Shown here one piece after another: positions 4,492 through 8,563 of a DNA stretch of 64,000 nt. Source of the stretch: Herbaspirillum sp. Sphag64 (GTDB taxonomy: Bacteria; Pseudomonadota; Gammaproteobacteria; Burkholderiales; Burkholderiaceae_D); the NCBI RefSeq assembly GCF_014192645.1, contig NZ_JACHYE010000001.1:124001-188000 (forward strand). The letters are read 5' to 3'. Under the pieces are notes generated by a model. That model did no database searches. It had not been told where the DNA came from and saw nothing but the letters and a program-made list of their open reading frames with translations. Numbering within the stretch: position 1 is the stretch's first letter; each line of letters begins with the position of its first letter. Made by a program: the position numbers and the translations under genes.

Positions 4492-6549
4492 ATGAGTTTA
4501 CAAATTTATTCTGCACCGCTGGCAATTTCTGATAACGCCTCACAGGAAATGTTAACAACGAAAGAGGAAGAGCGACGATTGGCTGACTTACTGAGAGAGC
4601 CTCCTATATATAAACCTAATGGCCAAAGAATGCCTTCGTGTCAATCGATGGTGAAGATTGGCCTTTTCTTTGATGGTACCAATAACAATCGAGACAGAGA
4701 CGAACCCCTCAATGGACATACCAATATTGTTAAATTATTTAAGGCGCACAAAGATGCCCGACGTTTGAACAAGCTAAAGGACATTGATTCTTATTGCTTT
4801 TATGTTCCCGGCGTTGGAACCCGTTTTCCGGAAAATCAGGAATGGAGCGAATCGCAGGATGGTAAAGCCATGGGTAAAGGTGGACAGGCTCGAATTCTAT
4901 TCGGCATCTTGCAGGTCTATAACGCTGTACATCGTGCGTTTAATGACAATCGTCCACTTTACGAACCGGATCAAATCACCGCCAAACTAAAAAGCTACAC
5001 CCGCGACGTCGAACACAACTACGACAAGGACTACCCCGAACAAGTCCGCCGCCAACAGTGGTTCACACAACTACGCGATGAACTCAACGACAGACTGCAA
5101 ACAGCCCGCGACCTGATCCGGCAACCGCACATTCCCCTCATTCGTGTCGCCGTCTTCGGCTTTTCTCGCGGTGCAATTCAGGCACGCAGTTTCTGCTATT
5201 GGCTGGATGCCGCATTAGGTGGCAAGAACACCCTGGCTGGCATGCCGATTGAAATCAATTTCCTTGGTTTGTTTGACTCCGTCGCTTCAGTCGGTCTCGC
5301 CCACTCTGCAGCAAAAACCACGCCTCTATTCTTCGCGGATGGTCACTTCAGTTGGGCAGCCGAAACGCTCAAACCATTGCCATCATTGGTCAAGCAAACC
5401 GTGCATTACATTGCCGCGCATGAGCAACGCATGAACTTCCCCGTGACACGCGTGAAGGGTCAGAATGTGGTGGAAGTACCCTACCCTGGTGTCCATTCTG
5501 ATGTCGGTGGGGGTTATTGCCCCGGCACTCAAGGCCGTGGCATGCGTATGGACCAAATGATCTGTCAGGTGCCGCTATTGCATATGCATAAGGCGGCACG
5601 TCTGGCGGGAGTGCCGTTGGTGACTTATCGACAGATGTCTTCCGATTTGCAGGCGGATTACGCGCTCAGCCCCGAATTGGCGACCAACTGGAATGCCTAT
5701 ATGCATTCAGGTGAGTTTACCGGCACGTATGAAGATCAGATTCGCGAGCATATGCGCCTTTATTACCGCTTCCGTTACCGCTGGATCGGTCGCATGGCGC
5801 AACTGCCTGCTTGCCAGCGCGCCACCCGTCAGGAACAGCAGGACATGATCAGTTACGACCGGTTATTCAAAGGCGATATGCAGCTATTGACAGAACGTGC
5901 CAACGGCGGTCGCCCGTGGCAGCGGGATGACAATAATCAGATTGTGGCGCTGCATAGGGTCGGCAATGAACATCTCGCCAATCAATTGCAGTTGCTGCGC
6001 TCCGATCTGCGCGCTACGCCCGATGATTGGGAAATGATGGTGCTGCATGAATTTGAACATCAAAACGGACGACTAAGACTGGAGGAAATCGCTTTGCTGG
6101 AGGAGCAGGTCCACGATTCGCTGGCCGGCTTTTATCTGGCTGGTTACCAGACTGCCCAAGAGAAAGCCGAGCAGCTGCGGGAATGGCAAAGCGCACCACC
6201 ATCGCCCAATGAGCACTACCGGTATCAGGCGTGGCAAAACTTCCAGAGCGCCAAGGCTGACAATCCAGCGCTGCAAGACGTGTTGGATAGCAAGGCTGCC
6301 GCCGCCAAACAGGCGCAAAGTGCGCGGGTTACAGGTCGCATGGATCAGGTAGATTTCTATCAGCGTCGCATCGTCTTCACCGACGAAGAAGCCAACCTGC
6401 TGACCCAGGATGCCCATGGCCAGCCGATCTTCCCACTACTCAAAGACAGTGATGCCAGGGAATTGCGCAGTAGCCTGATTACCACGCAAACCATGACGCT
6501 ACGCGAAGGTGGTGGTTATCTGGTGCCACGGCATGCGTTTTCGCCGTAA
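4492..6549 (+). CDS. T6SS Tle1-like phospholipase effector (DUF2235 alpha/beta hydrolase)
   Basis: 685 aa. DUF2235 hydrolase core: opening block KIGLFFDGTNNN (residues 55-66), nucleophile elbow GFSRGA with Ser225, LFDSVASVG with Asp262, and GVHSDVGGGY with His335, forming a plausible Ser-Asp-His triad. Tle1 enzymes are phospholipases delivered by type VI secretion into the periplasm of rival cells. The C-terminal third has no recognised domain. The two upstream DUF3304 lipoproteins would be immunity partners. No VgrG, PAAR, Hcp or adaptor gene is in the window, so delivery must use components encoded elsewhere. The first ~165 codons are AT-richer than the rest (break near 4985), suggesting a mosaic gene. 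Confidence 0.87.
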   Translation: MSLQIYSAPLAISDNASQEMLTTKEEERRLADLLREPPIYKPNGQRMPSCQSMVKIGLFFDGTNNNRDRDEPLNGHTNIVKLFKAHKDARRLNKLKDIDSYCFYVPGVGTRFPENQEWSESQDGKAMGKGGQARILFGILQVYNAVHRAFNDNRPLYEPDQITAKLKSYTRDVEHNYDKDYPEQVRRQQWFTQLRDELNDRLQTARDLIRQPHIPLIRVAVFGFSRGAIQARSFCYWLDAALGGKNTLAGMPIEINFLGLFDSVASVGLAHSAAKTTPLFFADGHFSWAAETLKPLPSLVKQTVHYIAAHEQRMNFPVTRVKGQNVVEVPYPGVHSDVGGGYCPGTQGRGMRMDQMICQVPLLHMHKAARLAGVPLVTYRQMSSDLQADYALSPELATNWNAYMHSGEFTGTYEDQIREHMRLYYRFRYRWIGRMAQLPACQRATRQEQQDMISYDRLFKGDMQLLTERANGGRPWQRDDNNQIVALHRVGNEHLANQLQLLRSDLRATPDDWEMMVLHEFEHQNGRLRLEEIALLEEQVHDSLAGFYLAGYQTAQEKAEQLREWQSAPPSPNEHYRYQAWQNFQSAKADNPALQDVLDSKAAAAKQAQSARVTGRMDQVDFYQRRIVFTDEEANLLTQDAHGQPIFPLLKDSDARELRSSLITTQTMTLREGGGYLVPRHAFSP

Positions 6550-6635: not shown

Positions 6636-7055
6636 TCAGGACAGGTAAAGAACGATACGATCGGACGTCCAGATAGCAACGCCAGTGCCAAAGAAATCGG
6701 TATCTTCAGTCCAGATTGGACACTCAAGTGTCATCGCGCATGCCAATACCGGCCAGTCATCCACATCTCGCATTGCAATGCGCTGTAATGCCTGTTGGCG
6801 CATAGCCCCATAGAGTTCCATATCAAGGCAACGAACGACGCTGGCAAGACGATCTAACACCGCCATAGCCGCAGAGGGATCAATATCGCGCTTTTGCAGC
6901 AATCCCGGTAAATATTTTTTGGCATCGGCGTAGGCAACATCAGGTGCAAAGAATTGGACCGTCGTCGCATATTCCATAATGATGTCACGCACTCGCCGGC
7001 CCAATACGGCCCGAATCAGAATATTGGCATCAAGGACAACTGCCTTACCCCTCAT
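6636..7055 (-). CDS. PIN-domain toxin-like nuclease (VapC family)
   Basis: 139 aa. PIN-fold acidic residues are visible: VVLDANILIRAV near the N-terminus (Asp9), then a central RDVDDWPVLACAM and TEDTDFF near the C-terminus, as expected for Mg-dependent ribonuclease toxins. The ATG overlaps the stop of the preceding antitoxin gene by 4 bases. Likely cleaves RNA when released from the antitoxin. The RNA target cannot be inferred. It sits between the effector cassette and an orphan gene, in an accessory stretch. Confidence 0.82.
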   Translation of the reverse strand: MRGKAVVLDANILIRAVLGRRVRDIIMEYATTVQFFAPDVAYADAKKYLPGLLQKRDIDPSAAMAVLDRLASVVRCLDMELYGAMRQQALQRIAMRDVDDWPVLACAMTLECPIWTEDTDFFGTGVAIWTSDRIVLYLS

Positions 7056-7339
7056 CCTGCTTTGGCCCTCGACTTCTTGCTAGCGGCAGCTGTCTTTTTG
7101 CGTGCAGTTTTAAAATCAGTGACCACCGATTCAATATCCAGATCCTGCGCCTCAATCAACTTATCGAGGGTTCTGCTGGCTTTTTTCAGGGCGGCAATAT
7201 CAGCCTCCACTTGCCCCTGTGCAGGAATGAAATAACCAACCGTCTGACCGTGACGTGTAATCGCGACAGGCATGCCTGACGCAATGTACTCGGCCAGATC
7301 AGCACGAAACTCGCGTATGCCTACCTTTGTTGTTTCCAT
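7052..7339 (-). CDS. Phd/YefM-like antitoxin
   Basis: 95 aa from ATG 7339 (METTKVGIREF); an alternative start five codons upstream is less likely. The N-terminal half is Phd-fold: FRADLAEYIASGMPVAITRHGQTVGYFIPA pattern, the standard dimeric DNA-binding antitoxin module. The C-terminus ends in a Lys/Ala-rich tail (KTARKKTAAASKKSRAKAG), which is unusually basic. It lies first in the operon with the PIN toxin. An imperfect palindrome 11 bp upstream is a candidate autoregulatory operator. Confidence 0.82.
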   Translation of the reverse strand: METTKVGIREFRADLAEYIASGMPVAITRHGQTVGYFIPAQGQVEADIAALKKASRTLDKLIEAQDLDIESVVTDFKTARKKTAAASKKSRAKAG

Positions 7340-7349
7340 TTTTACACCC

Positions 7350-7369
7350 CACAATTATGAATCATTGTG
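7350..7369. promoter_or_regulatory. Candidate operator of the Phd/PIN operon
   Basis: CACAATTATGAATCATTGTG is an imperfect palindrome, 16 of 20 positions symmetric, with perfect CACAAT/ATTGTG ends. It lies just upstream of the antitoxin start. Antitoxins of this class repress their own operon at such sites; binding is inferred. Confidence 0.5.
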
Positions 7370-7543: not shown

Positions 7544-7900
7544 TTACTCCGCTTCATTACACATTTCCACGTGCCGCCGCGCCTCGTCGCGCAATAAGCT
7601 GGCTGAGGCAATCGAGAGTCGCTTCAACTGGTCGGCATAGACAATGCCGATTGCTGGTGCGGCGGCTTCTCCCTCGTCGGCGTCGTCATTGGCGGCGGAT
7701 TCCAGTTCACTGGCATAAATGATTTGCAGGCAGGCGTGGATACCGGCCGAAACATCGAGCGCGGTTTCCAGAAAATTGCCATAGAGCGTGCCCTGCTGCG
7801 GCCCTTCGATCCAGTGAAAATCCTGATGCGTGGGTGCGGTGCTGGTGCTGTTTTTATCGGTGTGGGAAGTGCTTGCGAAACTGCTGTCGTGGTCGGTCAT
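7544..7900 (-). CDS. Unrecognised small acidic protein behind a structured leader
   Basis: 118 aa, start ATG 7900 with GGAGG five bases upstream. The N-terminal 30 residues are Ser/Thr/His-rich and look disordered. The rest (FLETALDVSAGIHACLQII and IGIVYADQLKRLSIASASLL) looks helical, separated by an acidic linker rich in Ala, Asp and Glu. The layout recalls small DUF3077/DUF6124-type proteins of pseudomonads, but the resemblance is too weak to name a family. No signal peptide or membrane segment. The 240-base leader holds a promoter, terminator and extensive pairing potential, suggesting tight RNA-level control. Confidence 0.7.
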   Translation of the reverse strand: MTDHDSSFASTSHTDKNSTSTAPTHQDFHWIEGPQQGTLYGNFLETALDVSAGIHACLQIIYASELESAANDDADEGEAAAPAIGIVYADQLKRLSIASASLLRDEARRHVEMCNEAE

Positions 7901-7913
7901 GGAGCCTCCGTGG

Positions 7914-7932
7914 GGTACGCAAATAAGGTACC
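7914..7932 (-). promoter_or_regulatory. Hairpin just upstream of the orphan gene ribosome site
   Basis: GGTAC (7914-7918) pairs with GTACC (7928-7932) around a 9-base loop. On the transcript it ends a few bases before the ribosome-binding GGAGG, so it could affect access. A second small stem CCTC/GAGG lies at 7941-7955. Confidence 0.4.
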
Positions 7933-7957
7933 GGCCAGCTCCTCACCAAACGAGGGT

Positions 7958-8037
7958 GGCGGGCACAAGACAGGGTTGACGAACCGGCCTTATCCCCACA
8001 ACCGGCATGCCCGAAGGCATCCCTGCCCAGGCCCGCC
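7958..8037 (-). promoter_or_regulatory. Structured RNA leader element (multi-stem)
   Basis: Read on the minus strand, this 80-base block folds from an outer stem GGCGGGC/GCCCGCC (8031-8037 with 7958-7964). Inside is a second 8-bp stem GGGCAGGG/CCCTGTCT, including two G-U pairs (8021-8028 with 7968-7975). It encloses a perfect hairpin ATGCC-TTCG-GGCAT (8007-8020) with a canonical UUCG tetraloop, and a weaker CCGG/CCGG hairpin (8002-8005 with 7984-7987). It lies between an intrinsic terminator and the orphan gene start. I cannot match it to a named RNA family. Structure is read directly; function is inferred. Confidence 0.6.
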
Positions 8038-8061
8038 GTAGGGGCGTGCAAGGACAGGACG

Positions 8062-8085
8062 AAAAAAACGCGTCTTCAAGACGCG
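8062..8085 (-). terminator. Intrinsic terminator inside the leader
   Basis: On the minus strand a near-perfect stem CGCGTC-TTGAA-GACGCG (8069-8085) is followed by seven T (8062-8068). It could end the transcript of the small membrane protein gene, 183 bases upstream, or act as an attenuator, since a good promoter lies only about 60-80 bases upstream of it. Confidence 0.8.
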
Positions 8086-8149
8086 GCCTTTCGCCGGGGA
8101 TAAGAATCAGGTCGTCAAACCAGGCCCTCTCTTTTTCGAGGACGGACTA

Positions 8150-8178
8150 AGGATACCGGTCGATAAAACAGGGGTCAA
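8150..8178 (-). promoter_or_regulatory. Sigma-70-type promoter for the leader RNA
   Basis: On the minus strand TTGACC (8173-8178) and TATCCT (8150-8155) are separated by exactly 17 bases. Transcription would start near 8142, about 60 bases before the terminator hairpin and 240 bases before the orphan gene start. Confidence 0.55.
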
Positions 8179-8267: not shown

Positions 8268-8501
8268 TCAGAAGGTCAATTCCATACCGAGTGTTCTGGC
8301 AAGGCCGAAGGTGACGATCACCAGCACGATCAGCAACAGCACGAAGGCTACGGCCGCCTTGCCGGTCGCGCGTAGCACCGCGCTGCGCTCCTTCTCCTTG
8401 CCCTTTCTCCCTTGATCGTAATGCCACTTGATGGCGAAGAACATGCCGATGCCAAGCACACCAAGCTTGAATATAACGAAGACTATCGGGACCCAATCCA
8501 T
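8268..8501 (-). CDS. Small two-helix inner-membrane protein
   Basis: 77 aa from ATG 8501 (MDWVPIVFVIFK); an alternative GTG at 8534 adds 11 residues, and neither start has a strong ribosome site. Two hydrophobic segments (residues 3-22 and about 50-72) flank a basic loop KWHYDQGRKGKEKERS. No family recognised. It is divergent from a MocR regulator with a 182-bp spacer containing a large inverted repeat, so it is a candidate target of that regulator. Confidence 0.65.
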   Translation of the reverse strand: MDWVPIVFVIFKLGVLGIGMFFAIKWHYDQGRKGKEKERSAVLRATGKAAVAFVLLLIVLVIVTFGLARTLGMELTF

Positions 8502-8563
8502 GATTTTGCGGTTTTCCAGGCTATTAATTGACACAATCTATCGTGCGAAGCACTGCCTTGACA

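Follow-up and report, generated by a model that had tools for sequence, protein, structure and literature searches.

The locus analysed here lies on the minus strand of a 64,000-nucleotide stretch of the Herbaspirillum sp. Sphag64 genome (hereafter the window) and consists of a leader, a structured RNA and a small gene. It begins with a predicted sigma-70-like promoter, TTGACC-N17-TATCCT (8150-8178), followed by a first leader hairpin, GTCCTC..GAGGGC (8124-8143), which was recognized by fold prediction and by a sub-cut-off alignment to isrK, whose 5' hairpin it resembles. Next there are two short segments, TTGACGA (8112-8118) and CTTATCCCC (8096-8104), an intrinsic terminator (8062-8085) made up of a stem (8085-8069) and a T-run, and the structured RNA itself (7952-8043), which carries the complementary segments GGGGATAAG (7989-7997) and TCGTCAA (7976-7982). 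A spacer (7901-7951) with GGAGG at 7905-7909 then leads to a gene encoding a protein of 118 amino acids (7544-7900), taken from the ORF list and found by protein-family searches to belong to an orphan paralogous family. Promoter, terminator, local fold and long-range arms all lie at the minus-strand places where an initial annotation of this sequence had put them. Pattern scans returned one promoter against 0.7 expected by chance and one terminator against 1.2 expected; the terminator is also seen in fold predictions, and both elements recur at paralogous loci.

Among the neighbouring genes, an ORF of 88 aa that includes a hydrophobic stretch lies immediately 5' of the promoter (8268-8534, minus strand); Pfam gave no match for it. 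A toxin-antitoxin-like pair, Phd/YefM-like (sub-cut-off) and PIN_2, is located directly 3' of the 118-aa gene (6636-7354, minus strand). A gene for a Tle1-like T6SS phospholipase effector (4492-6549, plus strand) is also found near the module, and paralogues of this gene occur near 3 of the 24 such modules in the genome (also L025 and L028).

The structured element, which the initial annotation counted as part of a leader RNA, belongs to the C4 antisense RNA family. Window positions 7952-8043 matched the covariance model of Rfam family RF01695 with 62.8 bits (gathering cut-off 45) over the full model (positions 1-87 of 87), and the C4 fold of this copy has a predicted energy of -46.3 kcal/mol (z -1.99). 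The local fold noticed earlier is this C4 fold, and the statement that no named family has such a layout must be given up, since the layout is that of phage P1. In P1 the C4 RNA is excised by RNase P, c4 of the P1/P7 type being processed to about 77 nt, and a defining feature of it is a target at the ribosome-binding site. As a positive control, the P1 genome (NC_005856) gave a single C4 match of 68.8 bits; its annotation has the order a1, b1, C4, a2, b2, icd, with a1 and b1 marked as putative, and in P1 too b1 and C4 are separated by a terminator-like hairpin. The layout of the window is that of P1, minus a clear second target. Neither isrK (RF01394; 34.6 bits, cut-off 50) nor c4-a1b1 (RF03163; 20.9 bits, cut-off 46.7) could be assigned by score to the window leader.

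The genome carrying the window (4.58 Mb, 40 contigs) contains 24 C4 matches, all above the cut-off and distributed over 13 contigs, whereas none was found in 14 control genomes. At 22 of the 24 loci, C4 is followed within 450 bases, on the same strand, by a gene of the orphan family (L016, one of the 22, runs into a contig end); other small ORFs stand behind C4 at L013 and L022. The stretch of similarity between loci typically starts just 5' of the promoter and stops near the gene end, although it is longer in some cases. By eye, and before any pairing test, the copies were divided into group A (14 copies) and group B (10 copies, including that of the window). The pattern TTGACC-N17-TAT(T/C)CT is present 130-137 bases before C4 in all ten group B copies and in 13 of the 24 copies overall, and a terminator-like hairpin is found within 80 bases before C4 at 23 of the 24 loci, compared with 23 of 240 shuffled 80-mers.

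Following the P1 nomenclature, we call the 5' target a1 and its partner in the C4 junction a', and the 3' target b1 and its partner in the apical loop b', both arms being placed by the RF01695 alignment, inverted repeats and covariation. A complementary a/b target, as expected of a C4 RNA, lies nearby in the same predicted transcript, with 7/7 pairs for a1/a' and 9/9 for b1/b'. By length alone these arms are unexceptional, as the same 601 bases hold 19 inverted repeats, some of them longer and one more a perfect 9-mer; the evidence for their reality is covariation. Across 15 sequences of group B, ten of them from the window genome, two from the related genome G001 and three from G004, 236 of 240 cells are paired at the 16 long-range pairs and 79 cells are double-changed. 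All seven a1/a' positions are paired in 15/15 sequences, with double changes at four of the seven, and b1/b' shows double changes at eight of nine positions; the value of 6/9 for G4_L047 is a register slip of the alignment script, and G1_L048 has one true mismatch. The compensatory changes that the initial annotation had set beforehand as the test of the pairing were therefore found, at 12 of the 16 positions. An independent pair counter applied to the whole structure gave 91.4% paired cells, against 35-42% for slid partners, and a covariation of 0.272, against 0.125 after shuffling.

To compare copies, each C4 was scored against all 24 upstream regions for a bipartite match, a' then b', with G-U pairs allowed. 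Its own leader was strictly best for 24/24 C4s, and none of 20000 permutations reached the observed sum (z 16.8). This test with located arms supersedes, for the window genome, a cruder one in which arms had been cut at fixed places and in which, ties allowed, the cognate was best in 12/24 cases for the loop arm upstream and in 7/24 downstream; among two genomes of another genus, the corresponding values were 5/26 for the loop arm upstream in G110 and 3/23 for the loop arm downstream in G150, and all twelve permutation tests of this kind gave 0/20000. A search of the whole genome for the exact bipartite site of the window copy found it nowhere but in the leader and, read on the other strand, in C4; no single other trans target showed this pattern at zero mismatches, the scope of that search. 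Each C4 is apparently tuned to its own leader. The initial annotation is thus borne out as regards the leader, the terminator, the RNA structure and the antisense-type long-range pairing, which is conserved. Its alternative of a mobile inverted repeat is not supported: the conserved entity is an RNA module that has a direction, and its arm pairs carry 24 different codes.

The two groups differ at the ribosome-binding site. In group A there is a cognate target at this site, strictly best in 13 of the 14 copies, whereas in group B the cognate was strictly best downstream in none of the ten, and 17457 of 20000 permutations were at least as good. The mean score of the cognate leader is 42.5 in group B and 37.6 in group A. 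Absence of the ribosome-site target is thus not accompanied by a weaker match to the leader, and a role of the leader pairing solely as a decoy for the second site is unlikely; that group B retains this pairing without a clear partner at the ribosome site makes it likely that the pairing is functional in itself. The spacer of the window copy holds no convincing a2/b2 target. It does contain a candidate relic, TTGGTGA followed by CTTAT and CCCC 7 bases apart, and its downstream score of 33, the highest in group B, is borderline, lying roughly at the 95% level for non-cognate pairs and just passing the threshold of 32 used elsewhere; a residual b2 is thus possible. With automatic arm location, the window genome has 13 copies with both targets, nine leader-only, one ribosome-site only and one with neither, in a count where the arms of L032 are mis-located, the leader of L026 falls under the threshold and the window copy is included under both (33 vs 32). 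The protein tree does not place the leader-only copies in one clade, and they need not go back to one loss.

C4 modules of this kind extend beyond the window genome. In a sample of 61 genomes, comprising the window genome and its relatives, 15 contain C4, the next highest numbers being eight in G004 and four in G001; 24 copies from relatives were classified as both (8), leader-only (4), ribosome-site only (10) and neither (2). C4 is found in 63 of 294 genomes of the GTDB family, and the protein family in 34 of 294; in a sample of the phylum the numbers are 62 and 2 of 398, respectively, with ten or more C4s in eight genomes including that of the window. Full searches of the two genomes of another genus identified 26 C4s and 22 family proteins in G110 and 23 C4s and 20 family proteins in G150, one C4 in each being under the cut-off. 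A family protein is encoded just downstream of 19/26 and 17/23 of these C4s, respectively, and a terminator-like hairpin precedes 18/26 and 18/23. Pairing is biased to the cognate in both genomes (0/20000 permutations on all four arms in the fixed-arm test), and automatic location gave both targets, leader-only, ribosome-site only and neither for 12, 5, 4 and 5 copies of G110 (n=26) and for 14, 4, 2 and 2 copies of G150 (n=22, one not extracted). G110 also has tandem C4s about 280-700 bases apart (L146/L167, L161, L162, L165). In several modules of G110 and G150 (L145-L190) the C4 target appears over the start of a short ORF before the family gene, an arrangement that looks like translational coupling as in orf45-anrP.

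Searches with the 118-aa family gave no credible match, the best hits, each to single members, having E 0.011 in Pfam and E 0.023 in PHROGs; PADLOC, PDB sequences and NCBIfam (two members tried) returned none. An AlphaFold model made without an alignment is weak (pLDDT 65.5), with two helices and a disordered N-terminus. Some members lack C4: C9:158040 and C3:39956 retain leader and terminator, while C11:93448 and, in G004, C85:86959 are without the terminator and most of C4 and give no C4 match. Members in which the leader is kept and C4, or the terminator and most of C4, is missing comprise the loci L191, L080, L193 and L195. C4-less members are as expected if loss of the regulator is tolerated or sometimes favoured.

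A second protein family is linked to C4 in genome G607, one of the eight genomes with ten or more C4s and presumably a Pseudomonas since PrrF, a marker of that genus, is found at one of its loci. G607 has 22 matches to DUF6124 (L348-L369), 19 of them above the cut-off, and at 18 of the 20 DUF6124 loci scanned (of 22) C4 is located just upstream on the same strand; the cut-off of c4-a1b1 is passed at 4 of these 20. Among 17 of the 19 C4s (two not being extracted), the cognate was best for the downstream target in 15 and for the upstream target in 10. The seven proteins tested from those encoded behind C4 in G607 comprise three DUF6124 above and one below the cut-off, one DUF3077 and two with no match. 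A homology of the orphan family to DUF6124/DUF3077 was rejected by a negative profile comparison (probability 0.2%).

The initial annotation had seen in the locus two folds that partly exclude each other, as in an attenuator. There is hardly any such exclusion on the C4 side, as one arm lies in the apical loop and the other in a junction that is unpaired in the family consensus. A classical cis attenuator is unlikely, because the antisense arm, 3' of the terminator, is present only in the read-through RNA, so that its target is either another transcript or one whose termination has already been decided. We consider it probable that the locus is instead a C4-type antisense module with the layout of P1 immunity, one of 24 chromosomal copies with their own codes, which exerts negative feedback in trans on the read-through of its own leader. 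In this scheme, whose transcription, processing, trans action and sign of effect we infer, a single promoter would give rise to a short leader RNA with targets a1/b1, mostly ending at the terminator, and to a read-through RNA running through C4 into the small gene. Being 3' of the terminator, C4 would be made only by read-through and would have no effect on termination of its own molecule. Once cut out of the read-through RNA, it would prefer its own leader to the others, using a' and b' to pair with a1/b1, and by acting on nascent leaders in trans it would limit read-through; this would be a negative feedback whose identity differs from copy to copy. In ten copies, that of the window included, the ribosome-site target would have been lost or decayed, leaving the leader as the only matched site.

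We postulate this trans-acting restraint of read-through because group B keeps its leader pairing without a clear ribosome-site partner, and in parallel with the CI RNA of phage P4, which together with seqA/seqC represents an antisense RNA processed from a transcript whose termination it enforces (PMC4825925). For a P4 CI/seqA-type effect of leader binding on termination, the energy model gave no switch in the window copy, whose modelled terminator is stable in both states (folded fraction 1.00 with a1/b1 free and 1.00 with them blocked); over group B the mean folded terminator rose from 0.74 to 0.97, with sites mis-picked in 3/10 copies (L017, L021, L029).

The short leader RNA could alternatively be an anti-C4 sponge: by titrating C4 it would switch on the downstream gene, much as IsrK does, and the leader pairing would then serve derepression. 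Such a role would suit the isrK-like leader and the 14 group A copies, which keep both targets, and there is a precedent in Salmonella, where IsrK, the short RNA of a similar locus, activates anrP in trans instead of repressing it (PMC4825925). We regard it as unlikely for the window, since group B has no matched ribosome site left for a sponge to relieve and has nevertheless kept the pairing. A quite doubtful possibility is that the window C4 still blocks translation of the 118-aa gene in the P1 fashion, using an a2/b2 in the spacer that has degenerated or been rewired. The candidate motifs in the spacer agree with it, as does the paralogue L011, which keeps ACTTCAC beside a predicted hairpin, but group B as a class has no cognate preference downstream and the window C4 loop has no evident anti-Shine-Dalgarno segment.

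That the locus might be a decaying prophage relic without present function is very improbable. It is true that C4-like sequences are common on viral contigs, with at least 120 stretches matching the C4 pattern, and that several family members in the genome are without C4 or terminator. Among 77 of 80 viral loci retrieved by this pattern, 50 have both targets, nine leader only, eight downstream only and 10 neither, and 33 have a terminator-like hairpin before C4. Against a relic, selection on the pairing is implied by the 24 loci, whose codes are distinct and co-vary; among the 25 commonest of 159 matched neighbour families, phage integrase accounts for 3 of 133 neighbouring proteins, and regulators, transporters and enzymes prevail; and the protein family was not found on viral contigs (0 of 63 candidate stretches).

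A broader reading, plausible but somewhat short of an even chance, is that in several proteobacterial lineages C4 modules are the control cassette normally used by small-protein families with many dispersed copies (the orphan family; DUF6124, perhaps DUF3077), with private codes that would allow dozens of circuits with little cross-talk, some of them being purely trans leader attenuators without a ribosome-site target. If so, C4 modules would be more than leftovers of phage immunity, and DUF6124 and the orphan family, whose functions are unassigned, would gain a shared control logic. The 24 paralogous antisense/target pairs of one genome are a collection of natural RNA regulators that seem to be orthogonal, from which the specificity code of C4 could be learned and insulated RNA switches could be built, and the leader-only copies make it testable whether C4-a1/b1 pairing alone has an effect.

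Among known systems, the P4 CI RNA is likened here by description alone, not by sequence (PMC4825925). The IsrK/STnc1160/anrP locus of Gifsy-1 (RF01394) is similar in having a short leader RNA that extends to a terminator and a read-through RNA that yields a leader-complementary RNA (PMC4825925), and differs in that the window is under the isrK cut-off and its tested neighbouring genes match other families. The c4-a1b1 leader (RF03163; PMC2864571) is alike in position and role as a target leader and differs by its score in the window. Closest is C4 of P1/P7, which shares with the window the fold, the UUCG hairpin, the a' and b' arms and the order promoter - a1 b1 - terminator-like hairpin - C4 - small gene; in the window copy, however, a clear a2/b2 at the ribosome-binding site is missing, and the gene behind C4 is not icd/ant by family search, the icd-ant antirepressor operon being replaced by the orphan gene followed by the Phd/YefM-like and PIN genes, in a module that is chromosomal and 24-fold. 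C4 RNAs have been described in Proteobacteria and phages by Weinberg et al. (PMC2864571), and A. baumannii AB5075 expresses 21 similar C4-type RNAs, the Group 1 sRNAs, which have a variable recognition loop and are apparently processed at an RNase P-type site (PMC5320573); chromosomal C4 is therefore not new. A private code, a leader-only form and a C4 link to these gene families were not found in the portions of the literature searched. The family itself being known, what is new here is the 24-copy C4 set, its copy-specific leader code, the leader-only form and the link to gene families: in the portions of the A. baumannii report consulted, neither neighbouring cognate targets nor a linked gene family are ascribed to Group 1 (PMC5320573), whereas each copy described here has its own leader target and the gene family is mostly shared.
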